From the NCBI RefSeq assembly GCF_005771435.1, contig NZ_VANI01000004.1:62001-126000 (forward strand): a stretch of DNA of 64,000 nt, given 5' to 3'. Both the position numbers and the translations under genes were made by a program. The stretch comes from Microbulbifer harenosus (GTDB taxonomy: Bacteria; Pseudomonadota; Gammaproteobacteria; Pseudomonadales; Cellvibrionaceae). Positions 3,443 through 63,662 of this stretch are shown here, in pieces (the stretch's first letter is position 1; every line of letters starts with the position of its first letter). Below the pieces are notes generated by a model. It made no database searches, was not told the DNA's origin, and was given only the letters and a program-made list of their open reading frames with translations.

Positions 3443-3510
3443 TGTAGGAGCCTGCTTGCAGGCGAAAATTTCCGGGCTCCGGACTATTCGCCTGCAAGCA
3501 GGCTCCTACA
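3443..3510. repeat. REP-like 24-bp perfect inverted repeat
   Basis: Arms at 3443-3466 and 3487-3510 are exactly complementary over 24 bases; the arm begins TGTAGGAGCCTGCTTGCAGG. They enclose a 20-base loop. The unit closely resembles the Pseudomonas REP class (TGTAGGAG...), which RAYT transposases mobilise. Only this copy was noticed, and no RAYT gene is in the window. Confidence 0.85.
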
Positions 3511-6718: not shown

Positions 6719-6789
6719 GATGGTTGGGCCATCTGGATAGGTGAGTGAATTCTGCGATTTGATGAACAGTGCGCAGGATTCTAAGCGAA

Positions 6790-6915
6790 GGCCGGGTGCC
6801 GGGTATGTGTTTTTGAAAGCGTCGGCGACAGGGAAGTCGCCGACGCAGCGTACAGGGATGTATTCACAGGGGGACGCCCAGTCCGGTTTCAAAAACACAT
6901 ACCCGGTGGCCGGCC
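6790..6915. repeat. Mosaic stem-loop element, copy A (phoB-phoR gap)
   Basis: Outer arms 6799-6818 and 6887-6906 are exact 20-base complements (CCGGGTATGTGTTTTTGAAA on the left) and extend imperfectly outward. Inner hairpin GCGTCGGCGAC (6819-6829) pairs with 6836-6846 around loop AGGGAA. The core at 6850-6874 (ACAGGGATGTATTCACAGG) is a divergent form of the family core. It lies between two genes of one operon and would be transcribed with them. Confidence 0.85.
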
Positions 6916-6959
6916 GCCACCGGGCTCGCTACGGAGCCACATAAAGCTGGAAAAAGAGC

Positions 6960-18123: not shown

Positions 18124-18196
18124 GGCCCGTCACCGGTGCCCACCCGACAAACGATTGCCGACAGGTTGTTTGGCGGGTGGGCACCGGTGGCGGGCC
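18124..18196. repeat. Simple 29-bp inverted repeat B (ridA-spoT gap)
   Basis: Arms 18124-18152 and 18168-18196 pair with two mismatches over 29 bases (inner part CACCGGTGCCCACCCGAC on the left). The loop is 15 bases and holds no AACCCATCC core. It may be a degenerate relative of the neighbouring element C or an unrelated palindrome. Confidence 0.75.
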
Positions 18197-18272: not shown

Positions 18273-18408
18273 GTGGCGGCACTGCTACCGGTGACTGCTC
18301 GCGGGACACGAGCTAGGCGCCCCCCCTCAACCCATCCATGGGGGCTCGGCTGCGGCCATCCAGGCCGCAGACGGTCCCGCGAGCAGTCCCCGGCATCAGT
18401 GCCTTCGA
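18273..18408. repeat. Mosaic stem-loop element, copy C (ridA-spoT gap)
   Basis: Outer arms 18288-18307 (CCGGTGACTGCTCGCGGGAC) and 18374-18393 pair with one mismatch. The core at 18329-18347 is AACCCATCCATGGGGGCTC, preceded by GAGCTAGGCGCCCCCCCTC. The inner hairpin CTGCGGCC-ATCCA-GGCCGCAG is at 18350-18370. Family termini TGGCGGCACTGCTACCGG and CCGGCATCAGTGCCTTCGA flank it. The core matches copy D, the inner hairpin copy E, and the outer arms match neither. Confidence 0.88.
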
Positions 18409-18463
18409 TTCTGAGATTTTAGTATTAACTGGCCCGTCAAACCGTCACCGGGTAAATGCGTAT

Positions 18464-20581
18464 TTACGGACGAGCGATCTTCAGAACCGCGGGCAGGTTG
18501 CGCAGACGTTTCATCACCCGCGCCAGGTGCACCCGGTTGGTGACCTCCAGAGTGAGGGAGATCACGCTGTGCTGAGCATCCTTCTCGTCCACATGGATCT
18601 GTTCGATGCTGGCGCCCTCCTCCGTGATACGCGTCGCCAGGCGCGCGATGATGCCGCGCTCGGATTCGACTTCCACCCGCACATCACCGAGGAAATCCCC
18701 CTTCACATCCGGCGACCAGTTCACCGCCATAATATTTTCCGGGTGCTCGCGCAACTCCGCCGCATTGCGGCAGGTATCGCGGTGCACCACCACACCCTTG
18801 CCGGAACTGATATGGCCCATGATGGTATCGCCTGGAATCGGCCGGCAGCAGCGGGCGAAACTGATCATCATGCCCTCCTGGGCGTCGATGGTCAGCGGCG
18901 ACGAGATATGGCTGGCTTCGGTTTCCGTGGTGCCCGGCGGTACCAGTAGCTTGGCGGCGGAGAAGGCGGCGCGGTTGCCGAGGCCGATTTCTTCCAGCAG
19001 GTTGTCAAAGCTCTCGCAGCGCGCCTCTTTTACTCCGCGCTGGATCTGCTCTTCCGTAAGATCGGTGATTTTGAAGTGGAACTTCACCAGCGCCTTTTCC
19101 AGCAACCGCCGTCCCAGAGCGATGGAGTCGTGGTGGCGCTGGTGTTTGAGGAAATGACGGATGGCGCTGCGCGCCTTGGCGGTGACCACAAAGTTGAGCC
19201 AGTTGGGGTTTGGCTGCACATTCTTGCTGGTGAGAATTTCCACCTTTTGGCCGCTCTCCAGCGGCTGCGACAGCGGTGCCAGGCGCTGGTTGATGCGCAC
19301 CGCGACACAGGAGTTGCCGATATCGGTGTGCACCGAGTAGGCAAAGTCCACCGCGGTGGCGCCGGCGGGCAGGTCGATGATTTTGCCTTTGGGCGTGAAT
19401 ACATAGACCTCGTCCGGGAAGAGGTCGATCTTCACGTTTTCGATAAACTCCAGCGAGTCGCCGGCGCGCTGCTGCATCTCCAGCAGGCCCTGTACCCAGC
19501 GGCGCGCGCGCACCTGGCTGGTGCCGCCGGTGTTCAACACCTCATCCCCGGAGGACTTGTACAGCCAGTGGGCGGCGATGCCGCTGTTGGCCATCTCGTC
19601 CATTTCCTTGGTGCGGATCTGCACCTCGATCGGCACCCCGTGCATGCCCAGCAACACCGTGTGCAAGGACTGATAACCATTGGATTTGGGGATGGCGATA
19701 TAGTCCTTGAACTCGCTGATCACCGGCTTGTACAAGTTGTGGATAACGCCGAAGGTGCGATAACAGGTATCCACGCTGTCGACGATGATGCGGAAGGCGT
19801 AGACGTCCATGATTTCCTTGAACGACTTCTTCTTCGAGCGCATCTTTTGATAAATGCTGAACAGGTGCTTCTCGCGCCCGATTACCAGCGCATCGATATT
19901 TTCCCGCTCCAGGCGCAGCTCGATGGCGTTCTGGATCTTTTCCAGCAGTTCCTTGCGGTTGCCGCGTGCGGCCACCAGCGCGGCGCGCAGGCGGCTGGCG
20001 CGCAGCGGGTAGATGGCGAAAAAGGCGCGGTCCTCGAACTCGATGCGCACATCGTTCATACCCAGGCGATTGGCGATGGGCGCGTAGATTTCCAGGGTTT
20101 CGCGGGCGATGCGCGCGCGCTTTTCCGGTTTCAGCGAGCCGAGGGTGCGCATGTTGTGCAAACGGTCGGCGAGCTTGACCAGAATTACGCGGATATCCCG
20201 CGCCATGGCCAGCGCCATTTTCTGGAAGTTCTCCGCCTGTTTTTCCGCCGGGCTGTCGGTTTCGAACTGGGTGAGCTTGGAGACCCCGTCCACCAGGTCC
20301 GCCACCTCGTCGCCGAACTGTTCCGCCAGTGCCGCCTTGGGGATGCCGGTGTCTTCGATCACGTCGTGCAGCATGGCCGCGGCCAGACTCTGGGCGTCCA
20401 TGTGCATGCCCGCCAGGATGGTGGCGACGGCGAGGGGATGGGTAATGTAGGGTTCACCAGAGCGCCGCGTCTGGCCGTCGTGGGCCTGTTCCGCATAGAA
20501 GTACGCGCGGCGGACGAACTGGATCTGATCGGGCGGAAGATAGGACGAGAGGCGATGGGCCAGACTGTCGATAGTATGCAA
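18464..20581 (-). CDS. spoT: Bifunctional (p)ppGpp synthetase/hydrolase SpoT
   Basis: 705 residues, standard length. The hydrolase HD domain is intact (HDVIEDTG and KLADRLHNMRTLG). The synthetase domain has YRTFGVIHNLYKP and the GYQSLHTVLLG block. A TGS domain (VFTPKGKIIDLPAGATAVD), a helical region, a zinc-finger-like segment FARCCRPIPGD and a C-terminal ACT domain follow. It controls the stringent response. It sits 58 bp downstream of rpoZ in the conserved gmk-rpoZ-spoT order. Confidence 0.97.
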   Translation of the reverse strand: MHTIDSLAHRLSSYLPPDQIQFVRRAYFYAEQAHDGQTRRSGEPYITHPLAVATILAGMHMDAQSLAAAMLHDVIEDTGIPKAALAEQFGDEVADLVDGVSKLTQFETDSPAEKQAENFQKMALAMARDIRVILVKLADRLHNMRTLGSLKPEKRARIARETLEIYAPIANRLGMNDVRIEFEDRAFFAIYPLRASRLRAALVAARGNRKELLEKIQNAIELRLERENIDALVIGREKHLFSIYQKMRSKKKSFKEIMDVYAFRIIVDSVDTCYRTFGVIHNLYKPVISEFKDYIAIPKSNGYQSLHTVLLGMHGVPIEVQIRTKEMDEMANSGIAAHWLYKSSGDEVLNTGGTSQVRARRWVQGLLEMQQRAGDSLEFIENVKIDLFPDEVYVFTPKGKIIDLPAGATAVDFAYSVHTDIGNSCVAVRINQRLAPLSQPLESGQKVEILTSKNVQPNPNWLNFVVTAKARSAIRHFLKHQRHHDSIALGRRLLEKALVKFHFKITDLTEEQIQRGVKEARCESFDNLLEEIGLGNRAAFSAAKLLVPPGTTETEASHISSPLTIDAQEGMMISFARCCRPIPGDTIMGHISSGKGVVVHRDTCRNAAELREHPENIMAVNWSPDVKGDFLGDVRVEVESERGIIARLATRITEEGASIEQIHVDEKDAQHSVISLTLEVTNRVHLARVMKRLRNLPAVLKIARP

Positions 20582-20639
20582 AGCCGCGCTCGCCTCTTAG
20601 ATTTCCTGCAAATCCTGCATCAATACGTCGGTAACCGGA

Positions 20640-20903
20640 TTACAGGTCCTGCTCGGACAGGAATACAGGTGCCGGCGCGGCTCGGCGGACTGGCTCTTCT
20701 TCCGGCTCGTCGAGGATGCTGGCGTCCACGAAGCCCTCTTCGATTTCGCGCAGGGCGATCACGGTGGGCTTGTCGTTTTCTTCCGGTACAAACGGGTCGC
20801 GGCCGCCGGTGGCGATCTGGCGGGCGCGCTTGCTGCCGACAATCACCAGTTCAAAGCGGTTGTCTACGTGGTCGAGGCAATCTTCAACGGTAATACGTGC
20901 CAT
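20640..20903 (-). CDS. rpoZ: RNA polymerase omega subunit RpoZ
   Basis: 87 residues. It begins [20 protein letters not shown], then [11 protein letters not shown] and [16 protein letters not shown], all diagnostic. Omega helps beta-prime assembly and, in enterobacteria, forms part of a ppGpp site, fitting its place just before spoT. The C-terminal tail is acidic with prolines. Confidence 0.97.
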
Positions 20904-21047
20904 AAATCTTCTGTTCCAGTGTGGGTACGCCCGGGTGGGCGAGAAAGAGCGAATTCTGTCGTCCGCCGGGTTTAGACCCGGATGGATTGGGGGTAGCTAT
21001 TCTACCGGACCGCGCGGTGTACGCAAATCGAACAGTGCACGGATCAA

Positions 21048-21187
21048 GATGCGAAGGTGGCGATGCCGGGTATAGGTTTGTGAGACCTTCCGCGAGAGGG
21101 ACCTCGCGGAAGAGCCCCCATGGATGGGTTGAGGGGGGGCGCCTAGCCCGTGTCTCACAAACCTATACCCGGTAGCGCCGCCGCCAC
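21048..21187. repeat. Mosaic stem-loop element, copy D (gmk-rpoZ gap)
   Basis: Outer arms 21066-21086 and 21152-21172 are exact 21-base complements (left starts CCGGGTATAGGTTTGTGAGA). Inner hairpin CTTCCGCGAG-AGGGAC-CTCGCGGAAG occupies 21087-21112. The core reads on the minus strand (21112-21130 on the plus strand is GAGCCCCCATGGATGGGTT). Its core and adjoining GGCGCCCCCCCTC are shared with copy C, but the inner hairpin is that of copy F. With the short rpoZ leader it fills the roughly 300 bp gap. Confidence 0.9.
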
Positions 21188-43041: not shown

Positions 43042-43167
43042 GATGCGAAGGCTTCGATAGGGATGGCCCTTTGCCAGACCGTCTGCGGCCTGGATGGCCG
43101 CAGCCGAGCCCCCATGGATGGGTTTACGGCGTGTCTGGCAAAGGGCCATCGCTAGCGGAGCCGCCAC
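43042..43167. repeat. Mosaic stem-loop element, copy E (rpmG-mutM gap)
   Basis: Outer arms GATGGCCCTTTGCCAGAC (43062-43079) and 43133-43150 are exact 18-base complements. Inner hairpin CTGCGGCC-TGGAT-GGCCGCAG at 43083-43103 is the same module as in copy C. The core reads on the minus strand (GAGCCCCCATGGATGGGTTT at 43106-43125). The termini GATGCGAAGGCTTCGATAGG and GCTAGCGGAGCCGCCA recall the family ends. Confidence 0.9.
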
Positions 43168-48432: not shown

Positions 48433-48600
48433 GGGTGGCGGCGCTGCTACCGGGTTCGGCCTTGTGAGACACGCCGTGAACCCATCCCTGGGGGCTCTTC
48501 CGCGAGGTGGCCCGGCCGCTGCATGTATTCGCGGCGCCTCCGGCCCCTCTCGCGGAAGGTCTCACAAGGCCGAACCCGGTATCAGCGCCTTCGCGTCGAG
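48433..48600. repeat. Mosaic stem-loop element, copy F (ftsY-ftsE gap)
   Basis: Outer arms 48448-48470 and 48559-48581 are exact 23-base complements (left starts TACCGGGTTCGGCCTTGTGA). The core AACCCATCCCTGGGGGCTC is at 48479-48497. The inner arms CTTCCGCGAG (48497-48506) and CTCGCGGAAG (48549-48558) enclose a further nested structured segment, unlike copy D, which has the same inner arms with a 6-base loop. Family ends GGCGGCGCTGC and GTATCAGCGCCTTCGCGTCGA are complete. Confidence 0.92.
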
Positions 48601-51675: not shown

Positions 51676-51820
51676 GTGGCGGGTGAGCACTGGGGGCGGG
51701 TTTTCAGGACCGCTGTGAACCCATCCCTGGGCGCTGCGGCGCAAAGTGTCCGGCCGCTTCAACGCGGCGCCTGCGGCCCTGTTTGCGACGCTTCCGAAAA
51801 CCCATACCCGGCACCGCCCC
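51676..51820. repeat. Mosaic stem-loop element, copy G (rpoH-DUF423 gap)
   Basis: Core GAACCCATCCCTGGGCGCTG (51718-51737). Inner arms GCGGCGCAAA (51736-51745) and TTTGCGACGC (51782-51791) enclose a nested hairpin-rich segment. The outer stem is imperfect here: the right arm TTCCGAAAACCCATACCCGG (51792-51811) is nearly that of copy H, while the left arm keeps only GGGTTTTC. Confidence 0.82.
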
Positions 51821-51871
51821 TTCTCTTCCAATTTCTGTACTTCGTGAGCCATCTGAGAAAGGACATTTTTA

Positions 51872-52249: not shown

Positions 52250-52287
52250 GCGCCAATAAGCAACGAAGTAAAAAAAACCAAATTGAA

Positions 52288-52398
52288 GGCCAAGTGCCGG
52301 GGATGGGTTTTCGGAAGCGTCGCAAACAGGATGTTTGCGCCGCAGCGCCCAGGGATGGGTTCACAGCGGTTCCGAAAACCCATACCCGGTGCTTGGCC
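52288..52398. repeat. Mosaic stem-loop element, copy H (DUF423-trmB gap)
   Basis: Outer arms 52288-52316 and 52370-52398 (29 bases each) pair at 26 positions; two of the three differences are G-T wobbles. Inner hairpin CGCAAACA-GGA-TGTTTGCG at 52321-52339. The core reads on the minus strand (CAGCGCCCAGGGATGGGTTC at 52343-52362). It is the inverted counterpart of copy G. Confidence 0.9.
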
Positions 52399-52469
52399 GC
52401 CCCAGCACCAGCTACGAAGCACCCAACCCAATGAACAGTGCTCCGAAGCAACGAGGTAACCACACAGCG

Positions 52470-63534: not shown

Positions 63535-63662
63535 GTGGCGGCACCGCTACCGGGAGTTGGTGTGTGAGACGCGCCGTGAACCCATCCATGGGGGCTCTGC
63601 AAAAACATCCTGTTTTTGAAGGTCTCACACACCAACTCCCGGTATCGGCGCCTTCGCGTCGA
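63535..63662. repeat. Mosaic stem-loop element, copy I (gshA-acpH gap)
   Basis: Outer arms 63548-63570 and 63622-63644 are exact 23-base complements (left starts TACCGGGAGTTGGTGTGTGA). Core AACCCATCCATGGGGGCTC at 63579-63597. Inner hairpin CAAAAACA-TCC-TGTTTTTG at 63600-63618. Full family ends TGGCGGCACCGC and CGGCGCCTTCGCGTCGA. Outer arms differ from copy F only in the middle part. Confidence 0.92.

Follow-up and report, generated by a model that had tools for sequence, protein, structure and literature searches.

Two intergenic elements, copies C and D, were analysed in a window of 64,000 nucleotides (nt) of Microbulbifer harenosus DNA (contig NZ_VANI01000004.1, positions 62,001 to 126,000), "window" meaning here this whole stretch. 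Judged from their sequences, C and D are somewhat probably copies of a mobile or converting 3′-end repeat that carries a candidate dual CsrA/RsmA-type site. Copy C (18273..18408, minus strand, the one with the GGA loops) is flanked by spoT and by ridA, a gene of the Rid family, and copy D (21051..21187, plus strand) by gmk and rpoZ; these neighbouring genes, as well as rpoH and trmB mentioned below, were named by NCBIfam. Module exchange between copies of the repeat is real and is visible between close genomes, and its route may have been gene conversion, template switching or re-insertion.

According to the preliminary description, C and D share more than 30 identical bases, which was borne out: the 32-base core GGCGCCCCCCCTCAACCCATCCATGGGGGCTC occurs twice in the window with no mismatch, at 18316-18347 on the plus strand and at 21112-21143 on the minus strand, and 100 shuffles gave a mean of 0.00. 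This core combines two modules, namely hairpin 2 (CCCATCCATGGG, 18331-18342 in C) and part of an optional third hairpin (GGCGCCTAG), the latter being present in only some copies. As also described there, C has the same inner hairpin as copy E (43045-43167, plus strand; class c, short core), with CTGCGGCCATCCAGGCCGCAG and its flanks found in both, and D has the same arms, CTTCCGCGAG...CTCGCGGAAG, as copy F (48435-48594, minus strand; class a stem, short core), in which an extra, nested hairpin is inserted into the inner loop. The outer arms of C and D had been called unrelated, which does not hold, because they are two variants of one 29-pair stem in which 26 pairs are double-changed in the 45 copies aligned. 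Outer arms across copies are covarying homologues, not unrelated modules. In C, the left arm CCGGTGACTGCTCGCGGGAC (18288..18307) is complementary, save one mismatch, to the right arm (18374..18393), and the class c inner hairpin (18350..18370) has its GGA apex when read on the minus strand. In D, the left arm CCGGGTATAGGTTTGTGAGAC (21066..21086) and the right arm (21152..21172) enclose three plus-strand hairpins: the class a inner hairpin CTTCCGCGAGAGGGACCTCGCGGAAG (21087..21112; apex AGGGAC), also found in F, hairpin 2 CCCATGGATGGG (21117..21128; apex ATGGAT) and the optional hairpin 3, GGGC-GCCTA-GCCC (21137..21149), which reads GGAC..GTCC or GAGC..GCTC in other copies.

C and D belong to a large dispersed family with an element length of about 120-137 nt. 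The exact 19-base core was identified at 27 places in the genome, and a 14-base version with at most one mismatch at 91 places, of which L022, L059 and L073 were set aside as non-members; one copy-by-copy examination, which also excluded L038, L055 and L069, gave 85 copies. Copies beyond the window were fetched and aligned (alignment A1, 68 copies; alignment A2, 45 subtype I copies), and a covariance model was built, which, when run over the 4.67-Mb genome, yielded at least 146 matches representing at least 145 distinct places. Counting on the better strand gave 109 copies for the window and the fetched loci together. Three near-identical copies (L026, L057 and L088) lie inside a larger inverted repeat (TGTTCACTTAAGCA ... 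TGCTAAGTGAACA), a setting that looks as though a miniature transposon carried them.

Read on the GGA strand, the element has GCGAAGG at one end and CCGCCAC at the other. The parts in between are, in order, a weak outer stem, the first inner arm (about 20 pairs), hairpin 1, a short linker, hairpin 2 (CCCAKGGATGGG or TACAGGGATGTA), either TTYACGGCG or a longer form with the third hairpin, and the second arm. This strand fits a long stem that opens to a three-way or four-way junction bearing two GGA-apex hairpins, with a third one present in some of the copies. The stems change with compensation, and the apices are almost constant. Pairing holds in 97.6% of cells over the 45 copies of subtype I, compared with 79.3% after shuffling, and double-sided changes occur at 33 of 45 pairs, so that covariation is far above shuffles and slides. 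Wobble pairs number 50 on the GGA strand and 4 on the other, and the better folding strand is the GGA strand in 82 of 109 copies and the opposite strand in 25; both strands were very stable in the five copies folded. On average, 6.8 of 20 arm positions differ among 55 copies of subtype I, whereas 881 of 900 inner-arm cells are Watson-Crick pairs (6 wobble, 13 other), which indicates that changes in the two arms nearly always come together. Templated hairpin repair, as suggested in the preliminary description, is a candidate mechanism that fits this near-lack of wobble pairs.

The apices resemble binding sites of CsrA/RsmA-type regulators. Hairpin 1 was located by script in 107 of the 109 own copies and carries a GGA apex in 102 of them, over 25 stem strings. 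It was also located in 79 of 85 copies from other genomes (80 named Gammaproteobacteria loci among the matches listed), where 65 of the 79 have the GGA apex and 62 stem strings were counted; the alignments additionally contain a GGA-bearing hairpin 2. Passages in two papers describe high-affinity CsrA binding to RUACARGGAUGU with the GGA within a stem-loop (PMC5694010, PMC6692469), and one of them also cites CANGGANG (PMC6692469). The M. harenosus genome contains one csrA gene and 43 perfect RUACARGGAUGU sites, compared with 1 for a reversed-pattern control. Thirty-nine of these sites are located in copies on the GGA strand (33 at hairpin 2 of listed copies and 6 in copies found by inspection), and 4 lie outside copies. 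Hairpin 2 of subtype III is the exact CsrA consensus, as in a further copy of the window (6785..6920, plus strand), whose hairpin 2 holds GTACAGGGATGT. The family displays a feature of CsrA/RsmA-binding RNAs, a GGA at a hairpin apex, near RUACARGGAUGU. In transcripts containing the GGA strand, the two GGA hairpins would provide the 3′ region with a dual site to which a CsrA/RsmA dimer could bind, and this putative site might act on mRNA stability or draw off CsrA.

The position of the copies relative to genes was assessed with a context script (330-base flanks; codon model trained on 37 open reading frames), which scored 58 of 88 contexts weakly and set the ends of some copies wrongly (e.g., L028, L042 and L046). 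By this script, 33 of the 88 copies lie between TCC-strand genes, 29 between GGA-strand genes, 20 between convergent genes and 6 between divergent genes; the 30 well-scored contexts comprise 26 tandem, 4 convergent and no divergent arrangements. Of the 88 copies, 80 are faced by a stop codon, which is 15-80 nt away in 64 of them, and the median distance is 33 nt in the well-scored contexts. Head-to-head arrangement prevails between neighbouring copies, in 30 of 33 pairs within 1 kb in the genome and in 22 of 26 pairs in the fetched loci, the latter hand-picked from the copy list.

Association between modules was judged by contingency counts and by a permutation test on arm distance. The counts of long and short cores were 5/17 in inner-hairpin class a, 4/8 in class b and 2/7 in class c, and all four combinations are present in each comparison (a/b, a/c and b/c). 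The third hairpin of the long core also occurs in a few copies of subtypes II and III. The permutation test covered 51 copies of subtype I and linked arm distance neither to the inner-hairpin class (148 of 1000 permutations reached or exceeded the observed value) nor to the core length (946 of 1000). Hairpin 2 of the TAC type pairs with its own set of inner hairpins, and the subtypes therefore mostly hold together; copy L084 joins a class-j-like stem of the TAC-type set to a CCC-type hairpin 2, so that this line has been crossed at least once. The module exchange proposed in the preliminary description was thus confirmed in part: all tested class and core combinations occur, and orthologous slots keep their arms while hairpin or core differ, but the modules do not mix freely and the arms are homologous.

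Orthologous slots were compared in relatives. The fetch for gmk-rpoZ covered 40 genomes and gave 23 loci, of which 21 are at the slot (L116 and L117 are other places). The element is present one way in 6 (including our genome), reversed in 4 and as a partial match at the locus end in 1 (L112), and the other 10 slot loci gave no element match. The arms in five relatives differ from those of D at 1, 3, 3, 2 and 1 of 21 positions, and the closest other copy within the M. harenosus genome differs at 3 of 21. At this slot the inner hairpin is of class a in our genome, c-like in G051 and G050, and a′ in G041 and G044, and the long core is restricted to our genome and G051 among the six same-orientation genomes. 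G024 has an insert ahead of the inner hairpin (L106 1693-1870, GATTCGCTTCGCTCACCC...GGCGTCC), lying between it and the arm. For spoT-ridA, 24 loci were fetched from 40 genomes and a copy was found in 3; relative G050 has the hairpin class of C but a short core.

Turnover was followed at 13 slots in two close genomes, whose flanking blocks are mostly 92-97% identical (88-91% around one slot); the comparison excluded three copies (two from L322, one from L334) that lack a counterpart within the fetched stretches. Three of the 13 slots are unchanged, one has point changes and nine are strongly different. Counted by copy, four are identical or nearly so (124/124, 121/121, 123/123 and 135/136 positions), one differs by one base and, at the inner apex, by an exact 31-nt hairpin, and one is identical at 129 of 137 positions. 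Five copies have the same orientation and are strongly changed; one of these retains the inner arms and hairpins 1 and 2 and differs in core length and outer stem, and another has hairpin 1 swapped, with smaller changes elsewhere. One slot holds the element in reverse orientation (95/125), and three differ in presence or number (1 vs 2, 2 vs 0 and 0 vs 1). No clean case of an exact empty site was found, the best presence/absence slot (104k) bearing an apparent relic of the 3′ foot. The modules would move through ectopic conversion between copies, possibly helped by the common core and foot sequences and by single-strand folding.

Among 38 genomes searched as relatives (our genome included), 18 contain the exact 14-base core, with counts from 0 to 42 within the genus. 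In named records the 21-base core was found in at least 119 stretches, and the 80 loci among the matches listed belong to Stenotrophomonas, Xanthomonas, Halomonas, Shewanella, Marinobacter, Methylotuvimicrobium, Rheinheimera, Saccharospirillum, Pseudomonas and Microbulbifer. Samples of the class gave the exact core in 7 of 274 genomes and a model match under strict filters in 7 of 56, our genome being included in both counts; the element is therefore absent from most sampled genomes. The highest model scores came from four Microbulbifer loci.

In the window, Rfam gave no match at gathering thresholds. With lax limits, TwoAYGGAY (RF01731), a member of clan CL00106 that also holds CsrB, matched the GGA strand of L016 (40.3 bits) and L132 (29.8 bits; cut-off 43). 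The likeness comprises a long outer stem, two hairpins with GGA loops and the same matched strand, whereas the loops here are often AGGGAT or AGGGAC instead of AYGGAY, and this family is dispersed as a repeat, forms head-to-head pairs and may include a third hairpin. TwoAYGGAY is listed for human gut, gamma-Proteobacteria and Clostridiales (PMC2864571); the class is cis-regulatory according to Rfam, whereas a table of that paper gives it as probably RNA and probably not cis-regulatory. Several loci also match the Yersinia small RNA (sRNA) Ysr224 (RF02770), whose consensus GACGCCGUAAAUACAUCCAUGUAGGCUCG corresponds to the opposite strand of the core; the best match is 44.7 bits against a cut-off of 70 and lies on the strand opposite to the GGA strand. 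CsrB-type CsrA/RsmA hairpins likewise have GGA at the apex and share the exact RUACARGGAUGU of subtype III, but here the copies are dispersed after genes and do not form one sRNA gene, and CsrA binding is putative. ERIC (127 bp) and YPAL (about 168 bp) are, by their description, likewise palindromic intergenic repeats, held to affect mRNA stability (PMC2229807); ERIC was rejected as the same family, one Escherichia coli ERIC scoring 1.6 bits with our model, filters off. A catalogue of stem-loop families from 40 genomes includes Pseudomonas families (PMC2267715). We found no paper on this repeat in the open-licence literature, and publication elsewhere is possible.

Four other explanations were weighed. 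The elements could be a REPIN-like miniature transposon, in which the hairpins would be single-stranded DNA transposase signals, the apex a recognition site, the head-to-head pair the replicative unit and the CsrA likeness due to chance. REPs and REPINs, as far as two sources describe them, are extragenic, palindromic, arranged as inverted doublets after genes and variable in copy number (PMC3116915, PMC3733652), and the doublets (30/33 and 22/26 pairs), the location after genes (PMC3733652), the core counts of 0 to 42 within the genus and the presence/absence differences between close genomes all agree with this. However, a REP unit is 20-40 bp with an unpaired GTAG or CGTC end tag (PMC3733652), whereas our elements are 120-137 nt with foot sequences of their own, end in GCGAAGG and CCGCCAC without such a tag, and have GTAG inside a stem only; moreover, the subtype III apex is the exact CsrA consensus. 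As for mobilization by RAYT, the model gave no match at 31 Y1_Tnp loci, RAYT- or IS200-type, which span 100049 bases and come from 11 of the 12 genomes searched, a weak negative confined to Y1_Tnp. We regard the REPIN-like explanation as rather unlikely. If the elements were simply 3′ structures that end or shield transcripts in both directions, with an incidental apex, this would account for the facing stop codons 15-80 nt away in 64 of 88 copies, for the lack of divergent arrangements in the 30 well-scored contexts and for the very stable folding of both strands in the five copies folded; such a stabilizer would require neither a near-constant GGA apex under many different stems nor a 21-base core common to several genera, and we consider it unlikely.

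It is also conceivable that modules were added and not exchanged, small mobile hairpins entering loops and junctions so that insertion and loss create the combinations. Two copies that are nearly identical apart from it (L334 7422-7574 vs L324 13679-13800) provide such a case: one has the exact 31-nt hairpin (GCCGAAGGCGCC...GGCCGGGCC type) inserted at its inner apex, with GGG on one side and AC on the other. Related inserts occur in F, G, L090, L055 and hairpin 2 of G052 (L113). At gmk-rpoZ, however, classes a and c are about equal in length and occupy the same slot, which is a swap and not an insertion, and addition in place of exchange appears quite improbable. Chance likeness of short G+C-rich hairpins, in favour of which only their shortness speaks, can practically be ruled out by the 32 exact shared bases with none expected, by the at least 145 model places and by covariation far above shuffles and slides.

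Several observations weigh against a 3′-end repeat with a dual CsrA/RsmA-type site. No mRNA-sense bias was found in the 88 contexts, the tandem orientations being even (33 vs 29). The outermost foot pairs solely on the opposite, non-GGA strand, the inner arms have almost no wobble pairs, which is odd under RNA-only selection, and the 31-nt insert breaks up the apex in one copy. The 39 perfect sites belong to related copies and are not independent events, and since the CsrA idea arose from viewing the loops, the loop counts are no independent prediction. TwoAYGGAY matched 1 of 10 own loci and 0 of 6 in another set, always below the cut-off, and the unrelated microRNA hairpin model mir-876 reached an E-value of 0.0005 against 0.0007 for TwoAYGGAY; because microRNA hairpin models give similar E-values, Rfam E-values alone are weak support.

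The window contains further copies and repeats. In copy G (51676..51825, minus strand, subtype II) the arms are mismatched at 6 of 20 inner positions and the inner loop contains a nested hairpin; this copy stands head to head with copy H (52283..52403, plus strand, subtype II). The right arm of G matches the left arm of H, a pattern as if left by a one-sided exchange. A gene cassette between G and H was considered and rejected, the gene being a DUF423 gene that lies between rpoH and trmB. Another copy (63535..63657, minus strand) is of class f with a short core. Adjoining C, a second palindromic repeat (GGTGCCCACCCGACAAAC...GTTTGGCGGGTGGGCACC) was identified at 18124-18196, and hairpins resembling it, with altered stems, are found at the same place in several relatives. 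A perfect 24-bp inverted repeat, TGTAGGAGCCTGCTTGCAGGCGAA, at 3443-3510 is another repeat-like hairpin.

We tentatively propose, as a possibility that falls short of being probable, that gammaproteobacterial mobile repeats spread dual CsrA/RsmA sites (about 150 or more in this genome), with constant conversion swapping stems under a fixed GGA apex; the copies might serve as a dispersed, evolving CsrA sponge or as local 3′-end regulators, their loops being parasitized by smaller hairpins. If this is true, head-to-head pairs would give a read-through transcript one CsrA/RsmA site whichever strand is read. To our knowledge, no partner protein is known for many of the dispersed palindromic repeats. 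The conserved part of this family points to one named, well-studied regulator, CsrA, and the function of the repeat can therefore be tested by standard assays. The slot comparison reveals parts of folded elements replaced between close genomes and offers a direct way to test mutual conversion of repeats, and the family offers candidates, open to testing, for a set of regulatory RNA elements that is scattered and changes fast.

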